Shown here piece after piece: positions 1 to 23,709 of a stretch of 36,673 nt of DNA. Location of the stretch: the NCBI GenBank assembly GCA_017459345.1, contig JAFUDC010000151.1, forward strand, positions 1 through 36,673, written 5' to 3'. Numbering within the stretch: position 1 is the stretch's first letter; every line of letters begins with the position of its first letter. Made by a program: the position numbers and the translations under genes. The stretch comes from Eubacterium sp. Its GTDB lineage: Bacteria > Bacillota > Clostridia > Lachnospirales > Lachnospiraceae. The notes beneath the pieces are model-generated. The model searched no databases. It saw only the letters and a program-made list of their open reading frames with translations, and was not told where the DNA came from.

Positions 1-128
1 CCGCCGCCCGGCGCTGCCATGGGCTGGGTTCTGTCAGACGGGCCTGCCCCTGCATTCTGACAGTGGGGACAGGAGTCGAATTTATCCTTATCATAAAAGT
101 GTCCGTTGCTGCATCTGGTAAGATTCAT
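1..128 (-). CDS. N-terminal zinc-ribbon protein, partial (probable FHA protein)
   Basis: Only the first 42 codons are inside the window; the gene runs off the left edge. The start is ATG at 126-128, preceded by GGAGG at 139-143. The product begins MNLTRCSNGHFYDKDKF and continues with a CPHC pair, so it carries a four-ligand zinc-ribbon-like motif of the form CxxGHFYDxDKFxxCPxC. The FHA protein encoded at 4279-4959 begins with the same pattern (KCEKGHFFDVDKFGKCPYC), so I infer that this is a paralogue with an FHA domain further on, which cannot be seen. It starts 21 bases after the stop of the upstream phosphatase gene and is therefore the next cistron of the same operon. The zinc motif is directly visible; the FHA assignment is inference. 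Confidence 0.7.
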   Translation of the reverse strand, partial: MNLTRCSNGHFYDKDKFDSCPHCQNAGAGPSDRTQPMAAPGG

Positions 129-149
129 AAAATTAATACCTCCTAATTT

Positions 150-1004
150 TTATTCCCTGTATAATAACATCACTATTGATGTATTATCCTGTACTCTGGG
201 GGAAGCCAGATGGGCTTCCTCCTGAAGCTCCTGTAAGGTTTTTTCGATATTTACAGGATTCTTTCTGATGATGGAATAGATCTGATCCTCACTCAGGGCC
301 TTATATAAGCCGTCGCTGCATAGCAGGAGGATATCCCCATCCCGAAGCTTTAAGGGGTTGGGGTTAAAATCCATCAGGCTGACATTGCCCATGCCCAGAT
401 AGGAAATCAGTGCCTCCCCTCTCTTTGCCTCCCAGTTATACTCCTCCTCCGAGATCTGACCTTCTGCCAGCTGCTCATTGAGAAGGAGAAAATAGTTATG
501 TTCCTTTGTCACACATACCATATCGTCTCCGCGTATGATATATATCTTGCTGTCACCGACAGATATCCACTGGAGATAGCCGTCCGTCACCGAGACAGCC
601 ACGAGAGTGGTGCCGGCATGGAGATAGTCTCCATACTCATCCTTGAGATTGGCCACCATGGTATCGATGTCGATCATCTCACTGCGGAAGAAATCACAGA
701 AGTTCTGCTGACTGTAGCGGATCTCCTCAAAGTCCTCGATGAACATCTTCACTGCGCTCTGGCTGGCAATCTCTCCGCCTGCAAGGCCTCCCATTCCATC
801 ACACACGATTCCCACCGCATAGGTCTGATCCGTGATATTCACATAGCAGGAGTCCTGCTGGTTTTCTCTTGTCCCCAGCACACTGCTCATGCTGCCGTAC
901 ATTTCATACCGGCTGTAATCTCCCATGGTCCCCTGGTCGCTGATCAGCCGCTGGCTTTCCTCCTGGGACAGCTGCTGTGTCACATCGTTAGAATAATCTT
1001 CCAT
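150..1004 (-). CDS. PP2C-family Ser/Thr protein phosphatase
   Basis: Cytosolic metal-dependent (PPM/PP2C) phosphatase expected to remove phosphate from Ser/Thr residues written by the neighbouring kinases. The family motifs are in order: TRENQQDS near the N-terminus, CDGMGG, a GTT strand, VGDSKIY, LLLCSDGL and a C-terminal QDNTS. The metal-binding aspartates are all present, so it should be active. There is no signal peptide or membrane segment. An ATG at 1016 extends the frame by four codons but has no good Shine-Dalgarno. The ATG at 1004 has GAGG six bases upstream, so I prefer 1004 (284 residues). Compared with the second PP2C at 4991-5719 it carries a longer polar N-terminal extension of about 40 residues. 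It follows the kinase-FHA gene after 34 bases. Function is confident; substrates are inferred from context. Confidence 0.93.
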   Translation of the reverse strand: MEDYSNDVTQQLSQEESQRLISDQGTMGDYSRYEMYGSMSSVLGTRENQQDSCYVNITDQTYAVGIVCDGMGGLAGGEIASQSAVKMFIEDFEEIRYSQQNFCDFFRSEMIDIDTMVANLKDEYGDYLHAGTTLVAVSVTDGYLQWISVGDSKIYIIRGDDMVCVTKEHNYFLLLNEQLAEGQISEEEYNWEAKRGEALISYLGMGNVSLMDFNPNPLKLRDGDILLLCSDGLYKALSEDQIYSIIRKNPVNIEKTLQELQEEAHLASPRVQDNTSIVMLLYRE

Positions 1005-1038
1005 ATCAATCCTCATTCATTGTCTTTGTTATCTTCTT

Positions 1039-2562
1039 CTAGCCTTCAATCACTTCCAGCCGGAAGATGCAGGAATCCCTGGCCAGGGATAGCCAGCTTC
1101 CGGGCTGGGCCGGATAGATCTTGCCGGGGTCGCAGACAACACCGTTTAAGACCGTCTGGTTTACCGAATGGTTATCGGCAATATAAAAGAGATTGTTATA
1201 GGTGTCAAAAAACAACTCCAGATGTTTCCTGCCGATCACATGCAGGGGAATCATGATATTGCTGGACTGGGATCTCCCGATGCTGATCATGGTATTGACC
1301 GGGAGGAAATAGCGGTAGCCCTTTACCGGCTTGGTCATCCCCTGCAGGTATGGCCGGTATCTGGGAGGAGGAGGAGACGTCGGTACCTCCACAGGGTCCT
1401 TATCTTTTTCAGGCGGATCCGGGAGTTTAGTCGCTTCCAATCCACCTGGATCCTCCTTCTCCCCGGACGGCTCGGGATCAACAACAGTCTGTACCTCCGT
1501 GGCGCCTCCGCCTGATTCCCCATTAGCTTTCCCGCCGGACTTTTTCCCTTTCACATGAGTCTCCCAGTACTCATTATACTGGATAAGCTCCTGGGCGAAG
1601 GCCTTCATGGTCTGGGTCCGCTCCTTGGCATTCACCTTCAGCGCATTATCCAGTACGATAGTGAGCTGGGCGTATTCCTCACCCAGGAAAGAATATTCTT
1701 CCAGGGGGACGACCCTCCTGTTCTCCCCATCCGGATCCAGCCGGTCCGGAGCAGAGGGAACCTTCTTTCCCGTCAGGATATAATAAAAGGTGGATGCCAT
1801 GGCATAAACATCAGTAAATGCTCCCTGCTTGCCGCTGCTGGTATACTGCTCCGGAGGAGCATAGCCCGGCTTTAATACGACAGAGAGGTTCTGGCTCTTC
1901 TTTCCATGTATGTACTTGGCTGTTCCGAAATCGATCACCTTGACATGATTGTCCCTGGTGATCATGATATTCTCCGGACTGATATCCCGGTGAAAGATGT
2001 TGCCCTTGGAGTGAATCTCCTCCATGCAGGTGACAGCCTCCAGAATCACCTTGTAGGCCAGATGGTAGGGCAGCCGCCCCCCTGCCTGTCTGCGGACCGC
2101 ATTCAGATTGCTCCCGTCCAGATACTCCATCACAAAGTAGGCAGTTCCATTCTCCGAAAAGCAATCATATATCTTAACCACATCAGCGATTTCCTGGAGC
2201 TTCTTTAAGGTATCCGCCTCATCTAAGAACTTCTTCTTGCCGTACTCGAATAACTCTCTCCTGCTGGAGCTGGTGGGATTTAAGGACATATCGCCCTTGT
2301 TCCGGCTGGCGTTTTCCAGAGGAACGTACTCCTTGATGGCACAAATCCTCTGATGCTTGATATCGAAGCTCTTGTAGGTGATCCCGAAGCCGCCGGCTCC
2401 CAGGATCTTTCCTGCGATATAACGATTCTTCAGAACCCAGTTCGTGGGAAGGGCCAGCTGGTTTTCCCGGTTAAATTCATGAAAGCCGCAGTAGGGGCAC
2501 ACATCCGCCTGTTCACCGATCAGATGAAAACAGTTGGGACAATAATCCTGACTTGATGCCAC
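1039..2562 (-). CDS. Zinc-ribbon Ser/Thr kinase with C-terminal FHA domain
   Basis: Soluble Hanks-type kinase of 507 residues. Residues 8-26 form a zinc ribbon (CPNC...CPYCGF). The kinase domain spans about 48-340, with glycine loop GAGGFGITY, ATP lysine in AIKEY (K77), catalytic HRDISPENI (191 on), DFG (211-213) and APPEQY. A proline- and acid-rich linker follows, then an FHA domain at about 415-500 (SIGRSQSSN). No transmembrane helix is visible, unlike the other kinases here. The FHA core deviates: the usual Ser of SRxH is Gly (IGRKH), so phosphothreonine binding may be altered. Start is GTG at 2562; an in-frame stop lies just upstream and an AAGGTGG site sits seven bases away. The gene begins five bases after the VWA-FHA gene ends, so translation is probably coupled. 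Role as kinase is confident; targets unknown. Confidence 0.93.
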   Translation of the reverse strand: MASSQDYCPNCFHLIGEQADVCPYCGFHEFNRENQLALPTNWVLKNRYIAGKILGAGGFGITYKSFDIKHQRICAIKEYVPLENASRNKGDMSLNPTSSSRRELFEYGKKKFLDEADTLKKLQEIADVVKIYDCFSENGTAYFVMEYLDGSNLNAVRRQAGGRLPYHLAYKVILEAVTCMEEIHSKGNIFHRDISPENIMITRDNHVKVIDFGTAKYIHGKKSQNLSVVLKPGYAPPEQYTSSGKQGAFTDVYAMASTFYYILTGKKVPSAPDRLDPDGENRRVVPLEEYSFLGEEYAQLTIVLDNALKVNAKERTQTMKAFAQELIQYNEYWETHVKGKKSGGKANGESGGGATEVQTVVDPEPSGEKEDPGGLEATKLPDPPEKDKDPVEVPTSPPPPRYRPYLQGMTKPVKGYRYFLPVNTMISIGRSQSSNIMIPLHVIGRKHLELFFDTYNNLFYIADNHSVNQTVLNGVVCDPGKIYPAQPGSWLSLARDSCIFRLEVIEG

Positions 2563-2566
2563 TTCC

Positions 2567-4294
2567 TCACCACCTTACCTTTAAGCTGACGCTGCCCGCC
2601 TTGATTACAGAGCCGTTGTGCAGCTTTGTCTTTGTCATTATTATCACATCATCCACGGCTGTTCCTCCCGTGGAATCCAGATCCGTCACATAGAGCTCTC
2701 CATTATCGACCTCCAGGGCAAAGTGCTGTCTGGACATGGAAAGATCATCAAAATAGACATCGCACATGCTGGCCCTGCCGATGATGGCACTGCCGTTAAT
2801 CTGGACCGGCATCTCCCGAATCTCCGAGGCAATCCCGCTCACCAGGAATACCACATTCATGGTGGACCTGTCGTCATTCTTCACGTGCTGCTTTTTCTCC
2901 ATATTGGAGCCCAGAACCATCTCATCCTCAACAACCATGATCCCTCTGTGCTTTTTGATATAGAGGTAAATCGCCAGCAGGATGAGGAGAACAGCCAGAG
3001 CCAGCAGCAGGGCCCAGAAACGCCCCAGCTTTCTGTAGAAGGCCTTCAGGGCCCCGTCTCCATCAAGCTTTCCTGTCCAGGCTTCGGTCAGCTCATTTTG
3101 TTCGTTGGTATTATCCGTCACATTGTATAAGCTTACTTCATAGCTTCCCTTTTCCAGGGGGTCATTCAGGATGAGCTTGGCCTCGTAGACCTCATCCTTT
3201 GCGATATAGGTAGCCTCTGAGACGGTAAAGTTCTGTTTCTCATTCTTCCGGATAGAGTAGTTGCTCTTATTATCCGCCCCCCGGACATCCTCACTGAAGG
3301 ATACATATAAAGTCCGGTTATCCTTCTCGTCCTGTCTGACCTCGGTGATGACCGGTTTTTCATCGTCCGGCCTGGCCCGGTTCAGATAGACATGCTCCCT
3401 CTTTAAAACCTGGTCTCCTGCTGAGAGCTCCAGAACCTTCTCCTCCTCATACTCTCTGTTGGAGGAGGAGTGAACAGTGAGGGCACTCTCACTCATCAGC
3501 TGATCATGAAGACCTGTCAGCAGGGTCTTTTTCTTATCCTGATCAAATACGGCAAATGTACCTCCGGTCTTGCGGAGGAAGACGCCCATGTCATCCTGGA
3601 GGGATACCTTGGCCGTTTTCAGGCAGAAACCATACAGGGGCGTGCCGGTTCTTTGCAGCTTCTTAAGCGCTTCCTCCTGGGAAGTCAGACCTCCTGCCTC
3701 CTTGACCTCTGCCCAGTCTGTGAGGATGATCCCCACATGCCTGATGCTGTCGGTATCCCCATCCTTCATGGCCTGGTCCTTCCGGTCGGCCACCTGGTCA
3801 GACAGCTTGTTGATTCCTTCGTAGAGGTGGGTCTTTCTTTCTCTCCCCACCTTTTTTAAGGTTTCCTTCACCTTTTTGCTGCTCTCGCCGCCCTCTAAGA
3901 CCACTTTTATCTTCCCGGCAAAGGTGATGACCTCCAGCCGGTCGCCTTCTCTTAGATGATCGGATAGAGAGATAACGGATTCCTTCATGTCCTCCAGCTG
4001 GGCCTCACTCACCGACCGGGATGTATCCAGCAGGACATGGTAGAATATCCCTCTGCCGGTATTTTCGAACTCTTCTGCTGATTTGACGGTAAGGGTCATG
4101 TCCGCCCCCTTGATGTCGGCGGCTATGTCTTCCTTGTTATCGATCCCGCTCTGATATACATAGATATCCGGCAGATAGACGTCCACCTGGGAGATGGCTG
4201 CCTCCCCCTCGGCCTGAACGGGGGCTGCCCCCCACAGGGTCAGAAAGCCAAGTCCCAGCAGCAGAAGAAAGAATCTTCTTATTCTTTTTTCCAT
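2567..4294 (-). CDS. Membrane-anchored VWA-domain protein with cytosolic FHA
   Basis: 575 residues if translated from the ATG at 4294, which has AGGAG seven bases upstream; an ATG 18 bases earlier (4312) lacks a good site. A signal peptide (MEKRIRRFFLLLLGLGFL, cleavage near VQAEG) is followed by an extracellular von Willebrand A domain with the metal site DTSRS at about 90-94, and then a region with a beta-strand character. A single transmembrane helix at about 425-447 (ALLLALAVLLILLAIYLY) leads to a cytosolic FHA domain (IIGRASMCD, SMSRQHFAL). The FHA domain keeps GR and SRxH, but the loop usually written STNGT reads STGGT, losing the asparagine. VWA domains bind protein ligands through the metal, so this looks like an outside-in or inside-out adaptor. 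It overlaps the preceding FHA gene by 16 bases. Domains are clear; ligand unknown. Confidence 0.9.
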   Translation of the reverse strand: MEKRIRRFFLLLLGLGFLTLWGAAPVQAEGEAAISQVDVYLPDIYVYQSGIDNKEDIAADIKGADMTLTVKSAEEFENTGRGIFYHVLLDTSRSVSEAQLEDMKESVISLSDHLREGDRLEVITFAGKIKVVLEGGESSKKVKETLKKVGRERKTHLYEGINKLSDQVADRKDQAMKDGDTDSIRHVGIILTDWAEVKEAGGLTSQEEALKKLQRTGTPLYGFCLKTAKVSLQDDMGVFLRKTGGTFAVFDQDKKKTLLTGLHDQLMSESALTVHSSSNREYEEEKVLELSAGDQVLKREHVYLNRARPDDEKPVITEVRQDEKDNRTLYVSFSEDVRGADNKSNYSIRKNEKQNFTVSEATYIAKDEVYEAKLILNDPLEKGSYEVSLYNVTDNTNEQNELTEAWTGKLDGDGALKAFYRKLGRFWALLLALAVLLILLAIYLYIKKHRGIMVVEDEMVLGSNMEKKQHVKNDDRSTMNVVFLVSGIASEIREMPVQINGSAIIGRASMCDVYFDDLSMSRQHFALEVDNGELYVTDLDSTGGTAVDDVIIMTKTKLHNGSVIKAGSVSLKVRW

Positions 4295-4959
4295 ACTCTT
4301 TCTCCTTTGCAAAAGCTGATGAATACAAAGCGGCTTTCACCTATCTCCAGTTCATCTCCATCAAGCAGTTTTGCCGGCCTGCGAACGATCTCTCCCTTAA
4401 AGTAGGTAAGGGTCCCGTTGCCCGGAACGACAAAGAACTGATTCTCCTTGTCGTCATAGACGATGGAGCAGTGAGTATCCCGGGTCACTGTGGGGTCGGT
4501 TTTCAGATAGATGTCCATCTTCGGATCCCTTCCCACATGGTTAAAGCCCCTGACCAGCCGGTAGTCCTTGCCCATGTCCTTTCCGCTCGTGCAGACCAGC
4601 CACCCGGTCACCGGATCAATGCCGCTCTCAAACTGGAAGAGACTTACCGTCTTACCGTCATCCCCCGTCGGCTTCTCTGACCATTCAGGGGGCTGTGGCG
4701 CCGTAAAGACCGGCTCCTCCTTAAAGATATCCGTCTTAGGCATGATGGTCTGCCCGGTCACATGGGGTTTCTTGATCTTCCGGGCCGAGCCCGCAAACAT
4801 ATTCTGGGCAACGGTGACGGCATCATCCAGATCGTCCTCAATATTGCCCTGTATCTTCAGATTCTTATTCTTATTTGCGACGGGATTGCAGTAGGGACAT
4901 TTCCCAAACTTATCCACATCGAAAAAATGTCCTTTTTCACATTTTATGATCTTGCTCAT
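4279..4959 (-). CDS. Zinc-ribbon FHA-domain protein
   Basis: Soluble protein of 226 residues. The N-terminus has a zinc ribbon of the form CxxGHFFDxDKFxxCPYC (residues 7-24). The middle is polar, and an FHA domain occupies about 115-220 (HVGRDPKMD, VTRDTHCSI, PGNGTLTY). The fork-head-associated fold normally binds phosphothreonine peptides; here the SRxH element is the variant TRDTH, with arginine and histidine one residue further apart than usual. There is no membrane segment, so it is probably a cytosolic reader or scaffold for kinases such as the one at 1039-2562. Start ATG at 4959 has GAGG nine bases upstream. It follows the second PP2C by 31 bases and overlaps the VWA gene. Its first 26 residues resemble the truncated gene at the left edge of the window, suggesting a small family in this operon. 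Confidence 0.9.
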   Translation of the reverse strand: MSKIIKCEKGHFFDVDKFGKCPYCNPVANKNKNLKIQGNIEDDLDDAVTVAQNMFAGSARKIKKPHVTGQTIMPKTDIFKEEPVFTAPQPPEWSEKPTGDDGKTVSLFQFESGIDPVTGWLVCTSGKDMGKDYRLVRGFNHVGRDPKMDIYLKTDPTVTRDTHCSIVYDDKENQFFVVPGNGTLTYFKGEIVRRPAKLLDGDELEIGESRFVFISFCKGERVWKKE

Positions 4960-4990
4960 CTACTTCCACCTCAGCTTCCTGCCCTTTTTG

Positions 4991-5719
4991 TCACAAAACA
5001 AATGCCCCAACGGCTGAATAATTATCCATATTGGTTCCTCTTCCGTTCTTTAAAACAATCCGTTCCATGCGGCCAAGCCACTCATGGACGGTGGAAGATT
5101 TTCTCAGGCAGGCCTCCATCTGGGCTTCCTCGATGTTCTCCCAGAAACCGTCTGAGCAAAGGAGGAAGGCCTGATTTCTCTCCGCATTCATATAGGGAGA
5201 CAGCTGGTACTTGGGTGAGTCCCAGTCGATTCCCATAACCCGGATCAGGCGGTTCCTGTCCGGATGGTGGCGGATCTCCTCCGGAGTGATCTCACCGGAT
5301 ACCACCAGCATCTGCGGTACGCTGTGGTCCTTGGTCTGGTCCATCAGATATCCATCCTTAAAGTAGTAGAGCCTGGAGTCACCCACATGCCCCCACTGGA
5401 TCTGTCCCTGATAGAAGCGGAGCAGGACCAGGGTACTCTTAAGATCCCTTCGGGCTCCCTCATTGATCTGTTTCTGTATCAGGGCTTTCTGGCTGACTTC
5501 AAAGCAGCGGGCCAGGCAGTCCGGATCTCTGTAGTGCCAGCGGAAGATCTCCTGGGATTGCTGGGTGATCAATGCAGAGGCATCCTCCCCTCTCCCATGG
5601 CCTCCCAGCCCGTCAGCCAGGATCATCAGGGCGATATCAGGACCCAGCTGTACAAAACCTACGCTGTCCTCATTGACTTCCCTTTCCCCGACTTCTGATA
5701 ATTGTGCAAAAGTTATCAT
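4991..5719 (-). CDS. PP2C-family Ser/Thr protein phosphatase (second copy)
   Basis: A compact cytosolic PP2C of 242 residues, close to the minimal length for the bacterial PstP/PrpC type. Motifs in order are VNEDS, ILADGLGGHG, STLVLL, GHVGDSRLYYF, LLCSDGFW and TNMDNYSA, so all metal-coordinating aspartates are present. It lacks the N-terminal extension of the first phosphatase. Start ATG at 5719 has GGAGG five bases away. It lies 20 bases after the FHA-ABC exporter gene and 31 bases before the zinc-ribbon FHA gene. PrpC-type phosphatases usually pair with PASTA kinases of the PrkC type, and this operon contains such kinases upstream. Having two distinct PP2Cs in one operon suggests separate substrates or locations, which is inference. 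Confidence 0.94.
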   Translation of the reverse strand: MITFAQLSEVGEREVNEDSVGFVQLGPDIALMILADGLGGHGRGEDASALITQQSQEIFRWHYRDPDCLARCFEVSQKALIQKQINEGARRDLKSTLVLLRFYQGQIQWGHVGDSRLYYFKDGYLMDQTKDHSVPQMLVVSGEITPEEIRHHPDRNRLIRVMGIDWDSPKYQLSPYMNAERNQAFLLCSDGFWENIEEAQMEACLRKSSTVHEWLGRMERIVLKNGRGTNMDNYSAVGAFVL

Positions 5720-5739
5720 CTTAACCTCCTATCACTATC

Positions 5740-8079
5740 CTACCGGTCTTTTGATACATTTCTGAGGAAGAGGATACTGGCCGCGGCAAGTACCACAATA
5801 AACAATAAGAGAATTCCCCAGGTCTGCATCAGATGGTCCGCGCCATGCCGGAAGAGATCATCCGGCTTGTACTCAATCTGCTGATACATATGTCTTAAGC
5901 TGTTCAAATCAACAACATTGCCCAATCCCTCGACAGACCACCTGCTCACCGTGAAGTAGGAGATGATCTCGCTGGCTCCCTTGAGGCTGAACAGGATCCC
6001 CGAAAAGAGGAGCTGGATGATCAGCAGGAAGGGGCTGACTGCCATAGCCCGGTCGCCGTTCTTCATCACAGAGGATACCAGGAGACCCAGGGCAGAGGAG
6101 GAATAGATGGTCAGCCACATGGTGATGAAAATCTCCAGGAAGCATGGCAGTATCACTCCATCTGAAGGCAGGTTGCCCATAAGCAGGGCAAAGAGTCCCA
6201 CGAAGACCAGGGTCTGTACCAGGGAGATGACAAACTGTACCAGATACTTGGATAGTATGTATGTGGTCAGCCGCAGGTTTGACATGTACTCCCTCTTGAC
6301 GATGGGCCTCTCCTTGCAGACCTCCTGTATGGTATTGAAGATACCGATCCAGATTCCCGAGCAGGAGAAGGTGAAGAGGATCTGCTTGGTGGGCTCAAAG
6401 ACCTCAAACACATCATCTCCCGACACAATCTTGATCAGAATAGCGATCAGGATAGGCTGGATCAGTAGCAGCCCAAGCCTTGGCAGGTCGTTGATCACCA
6501 GCTCTCCATAACGTCTGGTGAGGGTGAAGAGCTGACGGATGGCTGATTTTCTCTTTGGTTTTTTTACCGGCTCTTTGTCCATGGAGCGCTCAAAGTCCAC
6601 CGGGGGATTAAACTGGTCAAACTGTCTGGCCCAGGTTTCGGTGTCCTCCTCCAGAAGATTGTAGATCTCGATCAGGCTGTCCACGCCAAAGAACATCTTA
6701 GCCTCCTCAGGGGTCCCCATGAAGGCCAGGGTTCCCTTCTTTCCCATGAAGATTATCTTATCACACAGGTCAAGGCTCTGGGTAGTGTGGGTGACCATGA
6801 CGATGGTCTTTCCCTGGGTTTTGGACAGGCGGTTTAATACCCGCATCAGCTTCTGCTCTGTTCCGGGATCCAGTCCGGATGTAGGTTCATCCAGGAAGAA
6901 CATGCCGGGATCGGCCAGCAGCTCCACGGCGATACTGGCTCTCTTTTTCTGGCCGCCGCTTAAGTTGCGGATCATGGTGTTCTGATGCTCTGACAGCTCC
7001 ACCAGGCGGAGCACCTCATTGATCCTGTCAGTGATCTCCTTTGGAGAAATGTTATCCGGCATCTTCATCTTGGCGGTGTAATAAAGCATCTTCTTCAGAG
7101 ACAGATTCTCAAAGACGATGTCCTCCTGAGGAACATAGCCGATAATATTTTTCAGTACATTGTAGTTCTGTTTCAGGGAGATACCATTATAAAAGACATC
7201 CCCCTCATAGAATTTATCATAACCGCCCAGGGTTTTCAGCAGGGTGGACTTACCTGCACCCGAACCGCCCACGATGGCAACAAAGTCATTGCTGTCGATG
7301 GTGCAGTTCACATGGGACAGAATCATTTTCTTTCCGTGGTCAACCCGCTTTACCAGATCAAGCATGGACAGCTGGATTCCATCGGTTTTGGTCTTGCAGA
7401 TCAGGGTCTCACAGCTGAAGATAATCAGGCTTCCGCCAATCTGGATCAGGTCCTTCTCATGGATTTCCTGAAGGCCTCTGACCGCAATACCATTGACAAA
7501 GACGCCGTTGGCACTGTCCATATCTTCTATGTAAAAGCGGTTATCTTTCTTATATACCCTGGCATGCCGCCGGGTCACAGCCGGATGGTCCAGAACGATA
7601 TCGCATTCCTTTGACCGTCCGATTACATATTCATCATCAAATACCGGAAATCTCTTGTACTCCTGCCGGTCGTCCCCGTTGGTGACGATTACCAGGATGG
7701 ATTCCTTCTTTCCCTCTGCCCGGATGTTGCCTTTGGAGCCAAGCAGAAGCATCTCCCCCACTCTCAGGGGTCCCATATATCTCTGAGGCTGCAGCTTGTG
7801 ATAGGATCCGCTTTTAAAGACATAGGTTCCGTTGGTGCTGTTCATGTCTCCCAGAAAGACCTGTCCATGTTCCAGCTTCAGTCTGACATGGGTTCCCGAT
7901 ATCACCGGAGAATTGATGACGATGTCGCAGGAAGAAGGATCCCGGCCCAGCACCAGTCTGCTTTTATTAAAGCTTTTTAAGTTGATATCCTGGATTCCGT
8001 CGCTTACGCTTACAATCAGCAGATTCAGATTGCTTCCCGCCCGGCCGGCTCCCATGGTATCATAGTATTGAGTTTCCAT
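5740..8079 (-). CDS. FHA-FHA-ABC transporter, fused ATPase and membrane domain
   Basis: 779 residues with two FHA domains (about 20-118 and 128-225), an ABC ATPase (about 235-470) and a C-terminal ABC-2 type membrane domain with about six helices (540-775). Both FHA domains have intact cores: GRDPSSCD, SGTH and STNGT in the first, GRSKECD, TRRH and SANG in the second. The ATPase has Walker A GGSGAGKST (271-279), signature LSGGQKKR, Walker B FFLDEPTSGLD and a switch histidine in VTHTTQ. The layout is that of the ABCG-like half-transporters with FHA modules, such as mycobacterial Rv1747, whose activity is controlled by binding a phosphorylated partner. Here it is the strongest candidate for an output of the kinase network. 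Start has GGAGG seven bases upstream. The substrate is unknown. Confidence 0.95.
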   Translation of the reverse strand: METQYYDTMGAGRAGSNLNLLIVSVSDGIQDINLKSFNKSRLVLGRDPSSCDIVINSPVISGTHVRLKLEHGQVFLGDMNSTNGTYVFKSGSYHKLQPQRYMGPLRVGEMLLLGSKGNIRAEGKKESILVIVTNGDDRQEYKRFPVFDDEYVIGRSKECDIVLDHPAVTRRHARVYKKDNRFYIEDMDSANGVFVNGIAVRGLQEIHEKDLIQIGGSLIIFSCETLICKTKTDGIQLSMLDLVKRVDHGKKMILSHVNCTIDSNDFVAIVGGSGAGKSTLLKTLGGYDKFYEGDVFYNGISLKQNYNVLKNIIGYVPQEDIVFENLSLKKMLYYTAKMKMPDNISPKEITDRINEVLRLVELSEHQNTMIRNLSGGQKKRASIAVELLADPGMFFLDEPTSGLDPGTEQKLMRVLNRLSKTQGKTIVMVTHTTQSLDLCDKIIFMGKKGTLAFMGTPEEAKMFFGVDSLIEIYNLLEEDTETWARQFDQFNPPVDFERSMDKEPVKKPKRKSAIRQLFTLTRRYGELVINDLPRLGLLLIQPILIAILIKIVSGDDVFEVFEPTKQILFTFSCSGIWIGIFNTIQEVCKERPIVKREYMSNLRLTTYILSKYLVQFVISLVQTLVFVGLFALLMGNLPSDGVILPCFLEIFITMWLTIYSSSALGLLVSSVMKNGDRAMAVSPFLLIIQLLFSGILFSLKGASEIISYFTVSRWSVEGLGNVVDLNSLRHMYQQIEYKPDDLFRHGADHLMQTWGILLLFIVVLAAASILFLRNVSKDR

Positions 8080-8123
8080 ATATTTCCTCCGTGTTAAGGA
8101 TTATCAAGCAGTACTGACGGTGT

Positions 8124-9230: not shown

Positions 9231-9254
9231 CTGGCAGGCCTCCTTTCATTAGCA

Positions 9255-11255: not shown

Positions 11256-11274
11256 CTCGTCATCTCCAAATATA

Positions 11275-12234: not shown

Positions 12235-12249
12235 GCTTTGCTCCCGCTT

Positions 12250-13068: not shown

Positions 13069-13088
13069 AACTTCCTCCATTGATCCTA

Positions 13089-15449: not shown

Positions 15450-15516
15450 CACTTCACCTCACTTATGTCCATCAATACTTATCAACCAACATGTTTCCGA
15501 TCTATTGTTTTCAGTA

Positions 15517-15540: not shown

Positions 15541-15571
15541 CAGCTTTAATTCGCTTTCTCTGACAAGCCAG

Positions 15572-17701: not shown

Positions 17702-17714
17702 AGCTAATCTCCGA

Positions 17715-17733
17715 TGATCATTTTTTATGATCA
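17715..17733. repeat. Intergenic inverted repeat overlapping a stop codon
   Basis: TGATCAT and ATGATCA form a perfect 7-bp inverted repeat with a five-base spacer. It covers the TGA of the WG-repeat gene and ends about four bases before the ribosome site of the PASTA kinase gene. It could be a weak hairpin tuning translation or mRNA processing. Confidence 0.4.
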
Positions 17734-19701
17734 GTGCCGGTTCCCCAGCTCAAACAGAGTTTCCTCACTTCCGATACAGAGGACAGTTCCCTCCTGCAGA
17801 ACGACGTCCATATTCCGGGGAAGCCGCTTTCCACCCACAAGATATACCCCGTTGGATGAATAATCAACCACGTTGTAGGTCCTCTGTGCCCCATTGTAGG
17901 TGATCACGCAGTGTCTTCTGCTCACCTTTGAATTGTTGATGATCAGGTCATTGCCCTCATGACTTCTGCCGATCCGGAGGCTCTCCCCCGACTTGATGCG
18001 GATCAGGGCTCCTGCGTACTCGCCCTTGATTCCCTTCAGATAGCCAGACGGAACTGTCTGGACTGCAGACTGGCCGGCATGTCCGTCATAGAACTGCTGA
18101 GACCGGATGGAGGACTCGATGTCTGCAGGCACCCGCCTGGGAGGATTATTCCTCGGAACATCTTTACGCATGGCTCTGCGCCGCTCCATGGCTTCCTTCT
18201 TCCTCCTCTGTTCCTCCAGAAGCTTCTCCTGACGGAGTCTCTCCTCAGCCTGCTTTTTCCGGTTTCTGACAACAACCAGAATGATGACCAGGATCAGCAG
18301 GACGGCCAGGACAATTGCCAGGATGATCAGCAGCTTCTTATGCTCTTCGACGAAACCCCCGGACTTTTTCTCTCCGCTGCTGTAAGCGTGAACATCATAC
18401 TTCTCGCCGCTGTTTTTCACTATTGTGACACAGTCCCTGGAATAGAAAGCCATTTCCCCGTTATCCAGAGTATCCTTCTCGTAATCTCCATAACCCAGGA
18501 TCAGGTCTCCGTTCCGGTCCATGACCGCATATTTATCATCATCATCTTTCAGCAGGACATAACCGCTGTCCTTAAAGATGACCTCCTTAAAGGCACCTTC
18601 AATTTCTTTTTTCTGAAGCAGACTGTAGAGACGGTATTTCCCTTCCTTCTCAAAGAGCATGAAGGCACGTTCTGCCTGTCTGCTTTCCTTGGATTCCAGG
18701 GAGGTTTCATCTCTGGTATAGCCGTCAATGCCGATATCCCCGGCGACCTTCTCTCCATTTTCATCGATGATCATCAGGTCACCGTCCATATTCGTGGCAA
18801 AGGCCAGGTTATCGGTATATGGTCCGACGGTTTTGAACTTCTCACTGAAGCGGTCGTTCTCCACATCATAGATGACCTTAAAACTCGTCTTCCCCTTAGG
18901 CATCTTCATCTGGATCAGGATGGAGTGGTCAGAAACCGCCTTCTTGAGAATGAGCTTTGCATCAATGACCTCATCTTCATCCTCTGCCCACTGTTCCTTG
19001 GGGGTGACAATCTTCTTCTCATCGCCATCACTGTTGAATATGCGGATATAGCGGTCTACCCGCAGCTTATTGTAGAAGGTCTCTCCTTCAGCCTTGTAGT
19101 ACTGGGCTGCGATATCCTTACCCACGCCAAGGATTACCGATGAGGTTGTCCCTTTCTCGTTATCCTCATAGAGCAGGCCCTCCTCCTTGAGGTCGATCAG
19201 CTTATTGTCCCGGTCATTGCGGATATCTGACTCCCCGGCGAAGGCTGTATCTGTAAGTACCTTGCTGTAGTTTCCGGAAAGGGAGCTTTTCTGCTCCTTT
19301 CCCTTCTCGTTGTAAAGAAATGTCTTGTTGCCATCATAGCCTGCTGCCATGGAGTGGCCGTCACTGTAGGCCCCCACCTGATTGTAGCTGAAGGGAACAA
19401 GGACATCCCCGTCATAATTGAGGATTCCCCAGTTCTCACCCTGTTTGGCTATCACGTAGTCATACCTCTCCGTGTCCTCGGCAAAGCTCATGTCAGCGTA
19501 GTCAAATTCTATGGCTTCCTCGCCCTTCTCATCCAGGAGGCCGTAATTGCCGGCACGGTCCCTGGCGATAAAATAGCCATCCTCTCCATCCACTATAGTG
19601 TAGGATGTATCAAAACGAATCTCCTCGGCAGCTGACACCCTGACGGGAGCCATGCAGCATAGGATGGCAAATGCAAGCAGTATACTCAATCTTTTTTTCA
19701 T
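17731..19701 (-). CDS. Exported WG-repeat protein with transmembrane helix and cytosolic FHA
   Basis: 656 residues. A signal peptide (MKKRLSILLAFAILCCMAPV) leads to an extracellular region of about 420 residues with WG-type repeats, for example DRAGNYGLLDEKGEEAIEF and ENWGILNYDGDVLVPFSY, and a late copy DDKYAVMDRNGDLI. WG repeats form beta-propeller-like or solenoid folds with unknown ligands. A strong helix at 456-478 is followed by a highly charged, probably coiled segment (EERLRQEKLLEEQRRKKEAM) and an FHA domain (553-656) with an intact core: RIGRSHEGND, VSRRHC and DYSSNGVYL. The FHA belongs to the same subfamily as those at 8124-9230 and 11275-12234. Start ATG has GGAG eight bases upstream. 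Its leader carries a sequence also found before the gene at 28104-28955. Role as a transmembrane sensor or adaptor is inferred. Confidence 0.9.
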   Translation of the reverse strand: MKKRLSILLAFAILCCMAPVRVSAAEEIRFDTSYTIVDGEDGYFIARDRAGNYGLLDEKGEEAIEFDYADMSFAEDTERYDYVIAKQGENWGILNYDGDVLVPFSYNQVGAYSDGHSMAAGYDGNKTFLYNEKGKEQKSSLSGNYSKVLTDTAFAGESDIRNDRDNKLIDLKEEGLLYEDNEKGTTSSVILGVGKDIAAQYYKAEGETFYNKLRVDRYIRIFNSDGDEKKIVTPKEQWAEDEDEVIDAKLILKKAVSDHSILIQMKMPKGKTSFKVIYDVENDRFSEKFKTVGPYTDNLAFATNMDGDLMIIDENGEKVAGDIGIDGYTRDETSLESKESRQAERAFMLFEKEGKYRLYSLLQKKEIEGAFKEVIFKDSGYVLLKDDDDKYAVMDRNGDLILGYGDYEKDTLDNGEMAFYSRDCVTIVKNSGEKYDVHAYSSGEKKSGGFVEEHKKLLIILAIVLAVLLILVIILVVVRNRKKQAEERLRQEKLLEEQRRKKEAMERRRAMRKDVPRNNPPRRVPADIESSIRSQQFYDGHAGQSAVQTVPSGYLKGIKGEYAGALIRIKSGESLRIGRSHEGNDLIINNSKVSRRHCVITYNGAQRTYNVVDYSSNGVYLVGGKRLPRNMDVVLQEGTVLCIGSEETLFELGNRH

Positions 19702-19733
19702 GGGGTCATCTCCTCTGTAAACTCATCTTTTTC

Positions 19734-19754
19734 CTAACTGATATTGTCAGATGC
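19734..19754 (-). promoter_or_regulatory. Shared leader motif, copy 1
   Basis: On the minus strand the 21 bases end in GACAATATCAGTTAG and lie 32 bases before the start of the WG-repeat FHA gene, just after the upstream kinase stop. The second copy precedes the secreted protein at 28104-28955 at nearly the same distance. It may be a regulatory or leader RNA element. Confidence 0.45.
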
Positions 19755-19761
19755 TCAGGGC

Positions 19762-21729
19762 TCACTTTTTGGTTCCCATATCTGTCGGCGGCAGGAACTG
19801 GTCGTAGGTCCGGGGCAGATAAGTTGTGCCGCCAAAAGACAGGTACCTGTATACACAGTCGATCACGTAATCGATCGGATCATAATCATAATGAGGCTGG
19901 GAATCCGGATAATACATCTCCATGATATAATTCTTCTTGCCATTGTTGGCAGCAAGTATGTACGCCAAAGTCTGCTCGGTGGAATCTGTAGGTCCTGTAA
20001 CAATCCCCCTTGACATGCCGTCAGAATTATTCTTTGGAACCTTCTTATAGTTAACGTGATATAGTTGTGAGTAATAGTCGTTGTAAAGATTGGTAGCATT
20101 GGTCAATGCATCCCCCTCATTGATCTCCTCGTAAACATGGAGGATCATGGTATCCTCCCCACCGTCAAAGCTTAACCAGTAGTCAGTTCCCGAATCATTG
20201 ACAGTGCAGTTGTTGAACATGTATTTGGGGTAGCCGAAGCTAAACTCTCCATCTCCGCTGGTCACGATATGGTAGGCGGAAGGTTCAAGGCATGAATCAA
20301 TGTCAATATAATCATTATCCATGAAGGGCAGAGCCGGCTCCTGGGCGGCTTCCTCTGTCACCGCCTCCTCTTCCGTTTCGGCAGGGGCCGGCTCCGTCGT
20401 CTCTTCTGCGGTTTCTTCCGTATCATCCGTTCCATCGGACTTTGTCGTGTTCTCTGCCGAGACTGTGATTTCCGAACCCGAATTGTCAGCCTTATTCTTA
20501 TCCCCCCGGCTGATCCGGACCATCATGAAGATGCCCACCGCCACCAGTGCAGCAGTCAATGTGATCAGAACCACAATGATGGTATTCATGCCGGTCTGGG
20601 TCTTGTCATTGCCGGTCTGCAGCTGCTGTCCGGAAGATCCGTCCTGGTAAAACTGCTGGGATCTCTGAATCTGCTGAGATGTATGCAGCTGCTGGGATCT
20701 CTGTATCTGCTGAGAATTATACAGCTGCTGGGAGGTATGCATCTGCTGAGAGATCTGGGCCTGCTGGGCCTGCATCTGCTGCAGGGCATAATACTGCTGC
20801 CAGTCATAGCTCTGACCTGCGGAATTCATCCCCACGGTAACCTCCCCCTCCTGGGAGTAGAGGTCCGCACAGAGATCAGCGATATTCTGATAGCGGTTCT
20901 CCTGGAGAACAGCCAGCCCCTTCATCAGAGCCTGCTCTGTTCTCGGATTGATGGGAACTCCCAACTGGGAGGGCCAGAGCAGAGTATCCTCCCGGCCTCT
21001 CTCTATGGACTGCATGGGAGTGACTCCGGTGATACACTTATAGATGGTGGCACAGAGGGCATAGATATCCGTCCAGGGCCCCTGTATGCCCTTGCTCCTG
21101 TACTGCTCTTCCGGTGCATAGCCATGCTTTAAGACCACAGTCAGGCTCTTCTCTCCGAAATTGGTATACTCCCTGGCAGCACCGAAATCCATCAGCTTCA
21201 CGCCGCCGTCGGGAAGGAGCATGATATTATCCGGGCTGATATCCCTGTGGATCAAGCCCTGTCTGTGGATGGCATCCAGGGCTTCCATCAGGGGAACCAG
21301 AAGGGACAGAAGTTCATTGGGCATGATCAATCCGTTCTGGGCCACGAAGTCCTTGAGATTAATACCATCCAGATACTCCATAACGATATAGGCCGTGTTG
21401 TTCTCCTCGAAGAAGTCATTGACGCTGACAATACCCTCTTCTTTATTAAACTTTGCCAGAGTCCTTGCCTCCTGGAGAAACTTCTCCTTTCCGGCCTGGA
21501 AGAACTCTCTGTACTTGGGCTGACTCAGGGTCAGCTCCTCACTGTATATACTGTTCCTTGTGACAAAACCCTGGGGGTAGTACTCTTTTACCGCCACCTC
21601 CACATCCAGCACCTGGTCAATGCCGGCATAGGTAATGCCAAAGCCCCCCTCACCCAGGACATCCCTGATGACATACCTGCTGTGCAGGATGGTTCCGGGC
21701 GCAAGAGTATGTAGATCTCTTGTTTCCAT
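19762..21729 (-). CDS. Transmembrane Ser/Thr kinase with Gln-rich juxtamembrane repeats
   Basis: 655 residues. Active Hanks kinase at about 18-290: GEGGFGITY, AVKEY (K48), HRDISPDNI (161 on), DFG (181-183), APEEQY. Unlike most kinases in this operon it has no zinc ribbon. Residues 310-372 form a Gln/Ser-rich stretch with repeated SQQ(I/L/M) units such as HTSQQIQRSQQ. A transmembrane helix at 383-404 and a Thr/Glu-rich acidic spacer (410-460) lead to an extracellular domain of about 190 residues (SAYHIVTSGDGEFSFGYPKY...) that I do not recognise. It has an aromatic-rich beta pattern like secreted ligand-binding or lipoprotein domains. The intracellular kinase core resembles that encoded at 25711-27762, which also lacks a zinc ribbon. 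Start has GGAG six bases away. Kinase is confident, ligand unknown. Confidence 0.93.
   Translation of the reverse strand: METRDLHTLAPGTILHSRYVIRDVLGEGGFGITYAGIDQVLDVEVAVKEYYPQGFVTRNSIYSEELTLSQPKYREFFQAGKEKFLQEARTLAKFNKEEGIVSVNDFFEENNTAYIVMEYLDGINLKDFVAQNGLIMPNELLSLLVPLMEALDAIHRQGLIHRDISPDNIMLLPDGGVKLMDFGAAREYTNFGEKSLTVVLKHGYAPEEQYRSKGIQGPWTDIYALCATIYKCITGVTPMQSIERGREDTLLWPSQLGVPINPRTEQALMKGLAVLQENRYQNIADLCADLYSQEGEVTVGMNSAGQSYDWQQYYALQQMQAQQAQISQQMHTSQQLYNSQQIQRSQQLHTSQQIQRSQQFYQDGSSGQQLQTGNDKTQTGMNTIIVVLITLTAALVAVGIFMMVRISRGDKNKADNSGSEITVSAENTTKSDGTDDTEETAEETTEPAPAETEEEAVTEEAAQEPALPFMDNDYIDIDSCLEPSAYHIVTSGDGEFSFGYPKYMFNNCTVNDSGTDYWLSFDGGEDTMILHVYEEINEGDALTNATNLYNDYYSQLYHVNYKKVPKNNSDGMSRGIVTGPTDSTEQTLAYILAANNGKKNYIMEMYYPDSQPHYDYDPIDYVIDCVYRYLSFGGTTYLPRTYDQFLPPTDMGTKK
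20640..20800 (-). repeat. Gln/Ser-codon tandem repeat in kinase gene
   Basis: Inside the kinase gene at 19762-21729 the plus strand repeats CTGCTGGGATCTCTG and CTGCTGAGA units of about 15-30 bases. They encode SQQ(I/L/M) blocks such as HTSQQIQRSQQ, just before the transmembrane helix. The near-identical DNA units suggest recent expansion. Confidence 0.8.
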
Positions 21730-21792
21730 CTTTCTCTCCTCGTGGTAAATAATAAAAAATGCTTTATATCATCACTTTTTTTAATCTGCAGA

Positions 21793-22833
21793 TCATAAGT
21801 GAATTATTCTCTTTAATAATGCTAAAAATCTCTGAAAGAAGGGAATGGATTCTGAATCCGCCTCCGCTCCTTTATCCGAATCAATCTTCTGATCTTTTTC
21901 TGTGCTTGATTCTTTATCTGTATTTATTTTCTCCCTAGAATCTTTATCTGTTTCAGAGCCTTCATCTGTTCCCGGCGCATCAATTGGTTCCCGCTCAGAT
22001 TCCTTACTTAAATCCCCCCGGGTCTCATAGAAGACCTCTGTTCTGGTCTCGGTCTCGAATCCTTCCTTGAAGGTCACCAGCTTCTCCTCATAATTCTGAA
22101 GATCGGGGAGAGCTTCCTCCCCATCCCGGGTCAGACCATAGTATCTGGCAATTCCCCTGGCGTCGGCCCGGGCCAGAGCCCTCAGGGATTCGTCTGAGCT
22201 CAGGTAATTCCCGAAGTCCCGGGCATGGTCTACGTAGGCATGTTCAATCAATACCTGCATGCGGTTGTTAAGTATCCCATCCTTGATAATCCGGTAATAG
22301 TCTGCCAGCTTCCCGTTGGGATAGGTAGTGCCTGTCTCAGAAGCCCGAAGCAGGATGCCCTGCTCCTCAATTCCCAGCTCAGAAAGTTCATGCAGGATAC
22401 AGCAGGCAAGCTTCTGCTCCTCATGACTGAGTTCTTCCCGGTAAGTGCCTCCCCCTGTGAGGACAAAGCAGCCATGGTCATATCCGGAACTCCCATCGTA
22501 GGCATTGTTATGGAGACTGACCAGAAGATCCGCCTCATAATCCTCTGCAATCTGAGATCTTACATCCAGTCCCATATCCCGGTCATCATCTCTGGTAAGA
22601 ATGACCTGAACCTGGTCATATTCCAGGAGGTCTTCCTTCAGATAACGGGCAATGGTCAGATTTAAGTCCTTCTCCTGGGTCCGCCCGTCTATGGCCTCCG
22701 CACCGGACTGACTGCCGCCATGACCCGGGTCCAGGACGATGGTCAGGCCCTTACCCGCCGCGTGAGATGTCCGGGAGAAGGACAGTATGATAGATAAACT
22801 TAACAAGATAACATATACATAGAACTTCTTCAT
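21793..22833 (-). CDS. Secreted N-acetylmuramoyl-L-alanine amidase (Amidase_3)
   Basis: 346 residues. Signal peptide at 1-26 (cleavage near SHAAG), then an Amidase_3 catalytic domain at about 30-235. The zinc ligands fit the family: H38 in LDPGHGG, E54 in QEKDLNL and H108 in SLHNNAY; the catalytic glutamate is E197 in VLIEHAYVDH. It should cleave the amide bond between muramic acid and the stem peptide of peptidoglycan. A highly charged Asp/Glu/Lys/Ser-rich tail (about 260-335) replaces the SPOR or SH3 wall-binding domains of many amidases and ends in a short hydrophobic segment (FFQRFLALLKRII). The start has only a weak AGCAGG site. As second gene of the operon it places a wall hydrolase under the same transcription as PASTA kinases, which sense the muropeptides that such enzymes release. 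That link is inferred. Confidence 0.93.
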   Translation of the reverse strand: MKKFYVYVILLSLSIILSFSRTSHAAGKGLTIVLDPGHGGSQSGAEAIDGRTQEKDLNLTIARYLKEDLLEYDQVQVILTRDDDRDMGLDVRSQIAEDYEADLLVSLHNNAYDGSSGYDHGCFVLTGGGTYREELSHEEQKLACCILHELSELGIEEQGILLRASETGTTYPNGKLADYYRIIKDGILNNRMQVLIEHAYVDHARDFGNYLSSDESLRALARADARGIARYYGLTRDGEEALPDLQNYEEKLVTFKEGFETETRTEVFYETRGDLSKESEREPIDAPGTDEGSETDKDSREKINTDKESSTEKDQKIDSDKGAEADSESIPFFQRFLALLKRIIHL

Positions 22834-22881
22834 CCGGTCAATACCTGCTGGGAAATGCTCCTCAGTAAAAGACAGGCTCTT

Positions 22882-23709
22882 CTAGTCGCCCATCTGCTTC
22901 TCATAGCCTAGAATCAATTCTGCATTCTTCTTCTCATAAGTGTTAAGCACACCCTCATTGAAGGCATCCGCACTCACCGTTCCCCTGTACCAGCTCTGGC
23001 TGTCAAAATAGTTCTGAAGCTCGGAATCCTTAAACCGGCGTCCATGTCTGGCATAGATCTCATTCCGGGCCAGCCGCAGCTCCTTTTTGCTGAGATAGGA
23101 AATGTCCGAGACAGCCAGATAGCGGCTATTGCTGTCCGGAAGGATATAGTAGGCATCACCGGCCGGGGTCGGCTGGGAAGGCTGCTGAGTGGTCGGCTGG
23201 GCTGCCGGCTTCTGCTCTGTGGTAAAATCACAGACGACCGTGCAGCGGTCAGACAGGCTGCCGGAAGAAGCTGTGATGAAAGTAGTCCCCTGGGACACAG
23301 CCGTCACCTTGCCGTTGGCGTTCACCTTGGCAATATCCGGGTTCTCACTGTCCCACTCAATGGTGGATTCATCAGAAATGTCTGTGGAATAACCCAGATA
23401 CTCCTGATCCCCCTCCTCGGTAAGCCTGAGCTTATCCGCACTGATATCAATATAGGTTCCATCCATCTCAGTCTGGCTTTCAGTCAGAATCACCTTATCC
23501 TCCCCGGATTCCACCTCTTCTTTATCTTTCTCATCCTCTTCATCCGCATCTTTATCCCCGGAATCATCCGTCTGTTCTGACCTGTGGAGAAATGGCACTG
23601 AAATGACATCTGCCAGAATCAGGTCCGCAAAGAGAACCGCCAGCAGTACGATCACAATACATACGATAAGAATGATCTTAATCTGAAAGGAATTCCTTGA
23701 ATTGCCCAT
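22882..23709 (-). CDS. Membrane-anchored Ig-like and YARHG-domain protein
   Basis: 275 residues and the first gene of the long operon. A transmembrane anchor lies at about 9-31 (IKIILIVCIVIVLLAVLFA), followed by an acidic spacer (GDKDADEEDEKDKEEVESGE). A bacterial Ig-like (Big_2) domain follows at about 75-165, with WDSENPDIAKVNANGKVTAV, then a Pro/Gln/Thr linker. The C-terminal YARHG domain (about 190-270) has the signature LRLARNEIYARHGRRFKD and YFDSQSWY. YARHG domains are extracellular and common in Firmicutes; they are thought to act on or near the cell wall, but the function is not established. Start ATG at 23709 has GGAGG seven bases upstream, and a candidate promoter is just ahead. It probably acts at the cell wall together with the amidase encoded 48 bases downstream. 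Confidence 0.88.
   Translation of the reverse strand: MGNSRNSFQIKIILIVCIVIVLLAVLFADLILADVISVPFLHRSEQTDDSGDKDADEEDEKDKEEVESGEDKVILTESQTEMDGTYIDISADKLRLTEEGDQEYLGYSTDISDESTIEWDSENPDIAKVNANGKVTAVSQGTTFITASSGSLSDRCTVVCDFTTEQKPAAQPTTQQPSQPTPAGDAYYILPDSNSRYLAVSDISYLSKKELRLARNEIYARHGRRFKDSELQNYFDSQSWYRGTVSADAFNEGVLNTYEKKNAELILGYEKQMGD

Follow-up and report, generated by a model that had tools for sequence, protein, structure and literature searches.

The 36,673-nucleotide stretch of Eubacterium sp. DNA analysed here (contig JAFUDC010000151.1 of assembly GCA_017459345.1, hereafter the window) carries an island of 17 minus-strand genes, g1 to g17, that encodes Ser/Thr kinases, a pseudokinase, PP2C phosphatases, FHA proteins and an FHA-ABC exporter. 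The island is conserved but patchy, and is found in scattered, distant Lachnospiraceae. We think that it probably encodes a threonine-phosphorylation circuit in which kinases act through shared FHA adaptors on an exporter and on cell wall outputs; the direction of signalling, the phosphorylation sites, the output and the cargo of this circuit are predicted from sequence. An earlier reading of the same stretch (the original prediction) had proposed a single envelope-sensing system with several ectodomains and shared cytosolic readers. Its observation was confirmed, and its interpretation was partly supported.

The window is the entire contig C127 of a 2.96-Mb assembly in 188 contigs (97.4% complete, 3.1% contamination). 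The 17 open reading frames (ORFs) run from position 23709 down to position 1, where g17 is truncated by the contig edge, and their coordinates bear out the predicted layout of co-directional genes that lie at most 119 bases apart and in part overlap. From g1 to g17 the successive gaps are 48, 63, 60, 29, 119, 8, 15, 19, 24, 44, 20, 31, -34, 4, 22 and 21 bases; the overlap of 34 bases presumes a TTG start for g14, and an ATG 6 codons further on would make it smaller. The kinases g3 (19762..21729; Pfam Pkinase 3.2e-33), g5 (15572..17701; 4e-36), g9 (9255..11255; 1.1e-38) and g15 (1039..2562; 7.9e-35) all retain intact motifs (catalytic lysine, HRD, N and DFG). Pairs of CxxC occur at the N terminus of g5, g9 and g15. 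The g3 and g9 proteins carry a transmembrane segment and an ectodomain, g5 has a PASTA ectodomain (1.1e-48, four stretches), and g15 is soluble with a C-terminal FHA domain (3e-9). The g6 protein (13089..15452) also has a PASTA ectodomain and is a pseudokinase, with the catalytic lysine replaced by arginine, HRD by HLN, N by S and DFG by DTN; g6-type proteins of the two congeneric genomes described below, G011 and G007, likewise lack the catalytic aspartate. Both phosphatases, g12 (4991..5719; PP2C 1e-10; DG..GG, GDS, SDG and DN motifs) and g16 (150..1016; 5.5e-14), carry the metal-site motifs.

FHA domains are distributed over receptors, adaptors and the exporter. The g4 protein (17731..19701) joins a signal/WG-repeat ectodomain (WG 6.2e-7) through a transmembrane segment to a cytosolic FHA domain (7.5e-13), g8 (11275..12234) joins a DUF4234 membrane part (3.3e-10) to FHA (2.9e-9), and g10 (8124..9230) is a polytopic membrane protein with a C-terminal FHA domain (5.5e-12). 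In g14 (2567..4312; alignments A1 and A3) an extracellular VWA domain (5.5e-10) precedes a transmembrane segment and a cytosolic FHA domain (9.8e-16). The g13 protein (4279..4959) has a zinc-ribbon-like N terminus, a linker with a conserved threonine and an FHA domain (2.6e-8); g17, of which the first 42 residues are encoded at 1..128, is an adaptor of the same zinc-ribbon-FHA kind. Since the complete g17 orthologue of G011 scores 31.8 bits for FHA against a Pfam cut-off of 20.7, the island probably has eight FHA proteins. The exporter g11 (5740..8079) combines two FHA domains, an ATPase (ABC_tran 2.2e-26) with Walker A, LSGGQ and Walker B motifs, and a membrane part (ABC2_membrane 2.9e-21) that follows the ATPase. 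The residues G-R, S/T-x-x-H and N-G are present in the FHA domains of g4, g8 and g10 and in both domains of g11. Pfam and motifs thus agree with the predicted inventory of kinases, a pseudokinase, two PP2Cs and seven FHA proteins, and the predicted PASTA (g5, g6), WG (g4), VWA (g14) and amidase (g2) domains all exceed their Pfam cut-offs.

The ectodomains of two kinases were examined further. The solute-binding-like ectodomain predicted for g9 has no Pfam match in the genome studied here; its support comes from relatives and from a profile search. Two of seven scanned relatives exceed the 27-bit cut-off of SBP_bac_8 (SIG302, 31.9; G183, 49.3), G383 falls below it (21.4), G011 has a weak SBP_bac_1 match (16.6 against a cut-off of 26), and no solute-binding Pfam match was found in G134, G166 or G007. 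The profile of this ectodomain matches sugar-binding proteins of the PDB, with a best E of 1.2e-6. An AlphaFold2 fold of it was dropped at a mean pLDDT (predicted local distance difference test) of 37 with four sequences. For the g3 ectodomain, a model from two sequences (pLDDT 55.6) gave a best Foldseek E of 2.2e-3, with DcrB, PsbP and Mog1 as matches and TM-scores below 0.5, which is a hint only of a PsbP/Mog1/DcrB-like fold.

The adaptors provide the most specific candidate for a phosphorylation site. Among 39 zinc-ribbon-FHA proteins of the g13 and g17 types from 24 loci, the linker, 36 to 171 residues long, is variable in sequence, but one of its columns holds threonine in 38 of the 39, in the setting [DE][DE]xKT[VI]G[IFY][FY]S. 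In 24 of the 38, the distance from this threonine to the beginning of the FHA NxxGR stretch is exactly 36 residues. The strict linker motif is present in 22 of 39 adaptors, whereas 200 shuffles gave 0.5 on average and never more than 4. Behind the zinc ribbon stands another threonine, shared by 35 of the 37 rows that have a residue at that position. The conserved linker threonine appears to be new and resembles a phospho-switch; given its likeness to that of GarA/OdhI, it is the best candidate for a site written by the kinases.

To survey the distribution of the system, the VWA-FHA protein g14 was used as a marker. Matches were obtained in 3 of the 24 genomes of the genus (E 1e-20), in 18 of 397 family genomes (E 1e-30) and in 8 of 391 class genomes, where all matches except the window's own span the VWA half only; a separate search, which also gave SIG296, SIG302, S26M, RUG12671 and STB_2, had two further hits, in a Chloroflexi and a Planctomycetota metagenome-assembled genome (MAG), that match the FHA end only and were not counted. 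For the exporter g11 (E 1e-60) the counts, with this genome included, are 5 of 24 in the genus and 13 of 200 in the family. The 24 VWA-FHA loci that were compared come from 17 of the 18 family genomes with the marker, from G011 and G007 (MAGs SUG1983 and MI.10_7) and from SIG296, SIG302, S26M, RUG12671 and STB_2, of which SIG296, SIG302 and RUG12671 are likewise MAGs; G130 was excluded because its VWA-FHA match sits in an EssC locus. ORFs in these loci were called mechanically and assigned to families by profiles built from at most three genus members, and the views span 4 to 60 kb, many on short contigs, so that absences in relatives are lower bounds. All 24 loci have zinc-ribbon-FHA adaptors. 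An active kinase was found in 23, at least one PP2C in 21 and PP2Cs of both types in 14; a pseudokinase, scored as one protein with the catalytic aspartate replaced, was found in 9, the FHA-ABC exporter in 7 and WXG100 genes in 1.

Gene order is also conserved. As the original prediction had suggested for Lachnospiraceae genomes, the arrangement was sought in relatives: G011 keeps the order g4 to g17 with one additional gene between g5 and g6, and G007 keeps g6, a g7-like gene, g9 to g12 and g14 to g17, with g8 and g13 not called in its locus. The recurrence of this order, in full or in part, indicates that the cluster is more than chance. At g3's place G011 has a more distant kinase (52% identity in the kinase domain, 26% in the ectodomain); this was left out of the identity ranges, and a closer g3 relative lies 3' of g17. 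Relative to G011 and G007, identity is lowest in the ectodomains, at 31 to 42% for PASTA, solute-binding, WG and g3 (G007 only) and 57 and 53% for VWA, and in the pseudokinase domain (42%), whereas active kinase domains reach 60 to 65%, PP2Cs 64 to 69% and FHA domains 46 to 72%. The most conserved stretches compared are the exporter ATPase (90 and 87%) and its membrane part (81 and 76%). Thus, within the genus, the inputs vary while the core and the output stay constant. The proposal of one conserved co-directional system that joins ectodomains to FHA readers and PP2C erasers is therefore upheld by the gene set kept in relatives.

A kinase tree was built from 52 rows, three of them controls, with domains of at least 200 residues that came from 15 loci and from two additional contigs of the present genome. 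It separates the g9, g15, g3 and g5/g6 lineages across genera. The g9 clade (7 rows, 96/92) and the g15 clade (13 rows, 100/100) both cross genus borders, which suggests inheritance as a set. Pseudokinases form one clade from five loci (97/92) and another from G383 and G134 (100/100), both grouping with g5 at weaker support (84/74). In the G224 locus L112, five g3-type kinases in tandem (4877-12191) adjoin the core.

Regarding outputs, the FHA-ABC exporter is the likely output in this genus, to judge from its conservation. Sequence ranking in the PDB puts ABCA lipid transporters ahead of ABCG2 for g11, and its best NCBIfam model, TIGR00955, falls below the cut-off, as do all NCBIfam matches listed (for g11, the best 25 of 193 matching families). 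Exporters of this type also occur with no core in view beside a more distant kinase, on contig C253 of G147 and in G168, G108, G149, G033 and G006, with weak PP2C matches nearby in the last three; no kinase was called beside the FHA-ABC gene in G093 or G097. In two genomes it is split into two adjacent genes, at 18037-20389 of the joined stretches L064+L065 (G128) and at 20785-23145 of L061+L062 (G037). The candidate wall output is g2 (21793..22833), an N-acetylmuramoyl-L-alanine amidase (Amidase_3, 2.8e-30). An Amidase_3 protein also adjoins a g3-type kinase in G007, where g17 is followed by genes for a kinase, an amidase, a protein with fn3, a subtilase and a second kinase. CHAP proteins occur in the loci of SIG296, SIG302 and G063, and subtilases accompany the core in G254 and G147 and are also present in G007. 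Downstream of the G007 core, stretch L040 (191-7596) has a VWA-like gene, recognised by eye, along with a macrodomain gene, a kinase gene and a gene for a subtilase. The remaining two island genes encode a membrane-anchored or secreted Big_2 and YARHG protein (g1, 22882..23709; YARHG 1.2e-25, Big_2 1.4e-9) and a secreted BspA-type leucine-rich repeat protein (g7, 12250..13080; LRR_5 6.5e-33).

These parts suggest the following circuit. Membrane kinases would sense the envelope through PASTA ectodomains (for wall fragments), solute-binding-like ectodomains and possible PsbP/Mog1-type ectodomains. Their kinase domains would phosphorylate the shared adaptors g13 and g17 on the near-invariant linker threonine, and probably also one another and the pseudokinase, for which a role as a scaffold or allosteric partner of g5 is proposed. 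FHA domains of the adaptors, of the receptors g4, g8, g10 and g14 and of the exporter would then recognise phosphothreonine and so bring the components together at the membrane. The complex thus assembled may gate the FHA-ABC exporter in this genus, wall-acting enzymes may be further outputs, and g12 and g16 would reset the circuit.

More tentatively, and with somewhat less confidence than for the circuit itself, we propose that the island represents a previously undescribed modular plug-in pathway. Exchangeable sensor kinases, often with a pseudokinase, would signal through the near-invariant threonine in the T[VI]x[FIY] motif of a dedicated set of zinc-ribbon-FHA adaptors to a neighbouring export machine, FHA-ABC or type VII according to lineage. 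If this were true, many surface kinases would converge on few shared adaptors, with the output swapped between lineages, and the Rv1747 exporter, the type VII phospho-subtypes and the type VI pathway would be linked as one design. The adaptor threonine provides one residue for testing the idea, and the island also supplies an example of a bacterial pseudokinase found repeatedly next to active kinases. Lachnospiraceae are common in guts.

Several observations weigh against the circuit as proposed. The exporter was found in 7 of the 24 loci and the pseudokinase in 9 (both lower bounds), so that neither can be central to the system in all genomes; of the two outputs named in the original prediction, the exporter is thus highly conserved in the genus but was not found in 17 of 24 loci, and the amidase recurs in G007. 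The presence of VWA-FHA in all 24 loci holds by construction. The tree splits the g3 position, the G011 kinase there not being g3's closest relative, and a kinase on contig C57, outside the island, is sister to the kinase on contig C124. The FHA domain of g13 and g17 has one residue more than usual (S/T-x-x-x-H), and those of g14 and g15 in this genome deviate at the N-G or S position; not every FHA domain need therefore bind phosphothreonine. The second conserved threonine of the adaptors may be partly an effect of alignment.

Among the alternatives, the strongest, although we regard it as rather unlikely, is that the island is chiefly a cell wall homeostasis system, an enlarged PrkC/Stk1-type locus to which the ABC exporter is incidental. 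PASTA domains in g5, g6 and an additional kinase upstream of the island (25711..27825), the amidase g2 and the CHAP proteins of the three loci named above would fit such a function. However, g5 scores 309.8 bits against the 450 required by the Stk1/PknB PASTA model (NF033483), contig C126 carries a separate PASTA kinase with an adjoining PP2C, an active g5-type kinase was called in 8 of the 24 loci, and the supposedly incidental exporter is the most conserved protein compared in the genus. That the island serves defence or inter-bacterial conflict is highly improbable. Its patchy occurrence in the genus at more than one site and the matches of its kinases to PADLOC kinase models, such as PD-T4-6 and mad6, are what a defence island might show, but these hits are generic, each of five kinase-fold proteins scanned matching 28 to 34 models. 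Pfam shows no nuclease or restriction part in g1 to g16, the AbiV-HEPN hit of g6 is below the cut-off, the AAA_21 hit of g11 is its ABC ATPase, and g14 had no match in the phage or plasmid records searched.

A link to type VII secretion is compatible with a phosphorylation circuit; as the explanation of this island we consider it unlikely, slightly more so than wall homeostasis. With neither EssC/EccC nor WXG100 among g1 to g16, the window does not itself qualify as a type VII locus. The original prediction had suggested that an effector such as a type VII-like secretion ATPase might lie past the left edge. As the gene next to g17, EssC found no support: the contig ends there, the next genes of G007 differ, and the EssC of this genome, which carries FHA, sits with two WXG100-like genes on contig C169. 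In kind the suggestion was apt, for the core of G166 is preceded on one strand by genes for YukD, five WXG100 proteins, two DUF4176 proteins, a trypsin-FHA protein and a DUF6382-FHA protein (Pfam puts four of the five WXG100 proteins above the cut-off and the fifth at 23.0 against 27.3, and the counting profile drew in part on G166 itself). Contig C52 of this genome likewise encodes a trypsin-FHA protein. EssC, matched at 1e-60 in 97 of 397 family genomes, is enriched in genomes with the marker (10/18 vs 87/379, Fisher p 0.0037; 9/17 vs 88/380, p 0.0091 when G130 is left out; 7/15 vs 90/382, p 0.061 for strong marker matches), although these p-values ignore relatedness. Moreover, seven of nine EssC loci viewed (G130, G134, G264, G147, G004, G380 and G395) lie near kinase, PP2C, FHA or VWA-FHA genes as detected by profiles. 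Against this explanation, WXG100 was found in a single core locus, and 8 of the 18 marker genomes lack an EssC match at that threshold. The VWA-FHA proteins of EssC loci score 48 to 49 with the g14 profile, compared with 54 to 324 for 21 core loci outside the genus; since the ranges are adjacent, the lowest core scores being 62 (G395) and 54 (G170, where the gene is cut off), the border is not sharp. The EssC loci L118/L119 (G130), L122 (G134) and L124 (G264) have their own distant VWA-FHA gene near WXG100-like genes, and those of G130 and G134 also contain PP2C and kinase genes. The phospho-parts of EssC loci, the G166 arrangement and published type VII subtypes that contain such phospho-parts (accessible text of PMC11217815) suggest that different machines may share the phospho-core as an upstream pathway.

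The boundaries of the island were also characterized. Upstream of g1 lies adk (23901..24542, minus strand; ADK 6.9e-61), the sole adk match in the genome. Between them a terminator-like hairpin (23830..23895, minus strand; -24.6 kcal/mol, z -4.9) followed by a U-run sets the island apart from adk. The promoter proposed for g1 at 23749..23777 (minus strand) exists as a 9/12 consensus match in which TG precedes the second hexamer, but matches of this kind occur at chance level (24 found, 19.6 +- 4.3 in shuffles). Runs of at least four T occur in three internal gaps (g1-g2, g2-g3 and g16-g17), and inspection of all intra-cluster gaps found no G+C-rich stem directly before a T-run, in line with the predicted lack of a convincing internal terminator. 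The 119-base gap between g5 and g6 folds at -30.5 kcal/mol and has no T-run. Terminator-like matches exceed chance in 5001-24900 (30 vs 17.5 +- 4.5 in shuffles); those on the coding strand, 6 of the 30 there and 2 of 9 in 1-6000, all lie within ORFs. Rfam and tRNA scans of the window found nothing. The GC content of the island, 51.0%, is within the range of nine other contig stretches of the genome (46.8-51.4%), so that no foreign composition is seen.

On the simplest reading, the island probably occupies the adk-map junction of this genome. An adk match was found in 17 other genomes of the genus, and in 14 of them map adjoins adk directly or after two small ORFs (the latter in G003 and G004; the adk of G007 was placed by a separate genome search); no map ORF was called beside adk in G005, G019 and G020, and no kinase, FHA or PP2C ORF was called after adk in any of the 17. 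This neighbourhood suggests that the island fills the junction. Contigs C124 (a leucine-rich repeat protein and a g3-type kinase), C52 (the trypsin-FHA protein and a kinase) and C21 form an end-to-end series whose overlaps are each exactly 141 bases long, with reading frames continuing across them, and C21 runs on to map (Pfam M24 peptidase) and a small protein also found 3' of map in relatives; as 141 bases may be the assembler's word length, a wrong branch in this order is possible. The first 141 bases of C127 match nowhere else in the genome, so that the junction of g17 with C124 is putative. In G011 and G007 the system is on another contig than adk-map, so the three genomes do not all share one site. 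The G224 core in L112 lies about 8 kb downstream of an apparent ribosomal alpha operon with map and adk, and is a second core near that operon. On the other side of adk, G006 has the order trpS-like, adk, map, its trpS-like gene being 90.7% identical to the window's tRNA synthetase gene (32663-33745); the simplest reading is that about 8 kb with another PASTA kinase lies between trpS and adk. The tree sister of this kinase (25711..27825, minus strand; identified by Pfam) is the kinase on C52. Two secreted-looking proteins with no Pfam match (24589-25605 and 28104-28955) flank it, their C-terminal regions alike as judged by eye. Genes for DUF2325, P-type ATPase and DUF6110 proteins (29332-32356), located between trpS and the upstream kinase, are absent from the trpS-adk interval of G006.

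Comparison with known systems places each part of the island in a familiar context. The exporter resembles PknF-Rv1747 of Mycobacterium tuberculosis, in that two N-terminal FHA domains, an ATPase and an ABC-2 membrane part form one chain and a Hanks kinase is encoded in the same putative operon (g9, upstream on the same strand, with short gaps and only g10 between). Its FHA region, the part compared, matches the Rv1747 FHA structure 6cah (E 4.2e-6), with OdhI and others slightly better. PknF-Rv1747 is a two-gene operon (accessible text of PMC3908365), whereas here a single exporter shares the cluster with four active kinases and one pseudokinase, a pair of PP2Cs and six or more further FHA proteins. 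Like GarA/OdhI, the g13- and g17-type adaptors carry a conserved threonine N-terminal to FHA (38 of 39). The threonine motif of GarA/OdhI is ETTSVF; the adaptors differ in their zinc-ribbon-like N terminus, long linker and [DE][DE]xKT[VI]G[IFY][FY] motif, and g13 scores 33.3 bits against the OdhI family cut-off of 200 (NF041660). PrkC/Stk1-PrpC pairs a PASTA kinase with a PP2C, as in the island, and consists of one kinase and one phosphatase; g12 (145.7 bits) and g16 (144.8) are below the 230-bit cut-off of the Stp1/IreP model (NF033484).

The pathway PpkA-PppA-Fha, as far as the accessible sources describe it, likewise uses a kinase, a PP2C and an FHA adaptor to gate an export machine, in that case type VI secretion; the window differs in having several kinases and receptors, and Pfam named no type VI part in the window proteins that were scanned. 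GTPase systems include trios of kinase, PP2C and vWA in which the kinase often carries a zinc ribbon (accessible text of PMC7159879); these resemble contig C136 of this genome more than the window. On that contig (L027, 11012-13950) a PP2C, a kinase and a small VWA-like gene (VWA_4 just below the cut-off) stand in a row, with an FHA gene nearby, along with genes whose sequences read as FtsW-like and PBP-like. Type VII subtypes c-j share the signalling domain types, and the G166 core adjoins WXG100, YukD and DUF4176 genes, but the window has neither EssC nor WXG100, and its VWA is predicted to be extracellular and fused to FHA, whereas the TscE protein of those subtypes is cytoplasmic (accessible text of PMC11217815). 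The claim that no described system has such a composition is qualified by these subtypes, described in 2024 with kinase, PPM phosphatase, FHA and vWA proteins (same source). No paper joining FHA domain, threonine kinase, PP2C and Lachnospiraceae was found in the open literature, the accessible part of PMC12419801 touching on type VII secretion, Lachnospiraceae and FHA terms only in its reference list, and a core with zinc-ribbon-FHA adaptors, a conserved threonine and a recurring pseudokinase was not encountered in the open literature searched. The parts of the island are all familiar in type, and their assembly appears to be a new variation on them.

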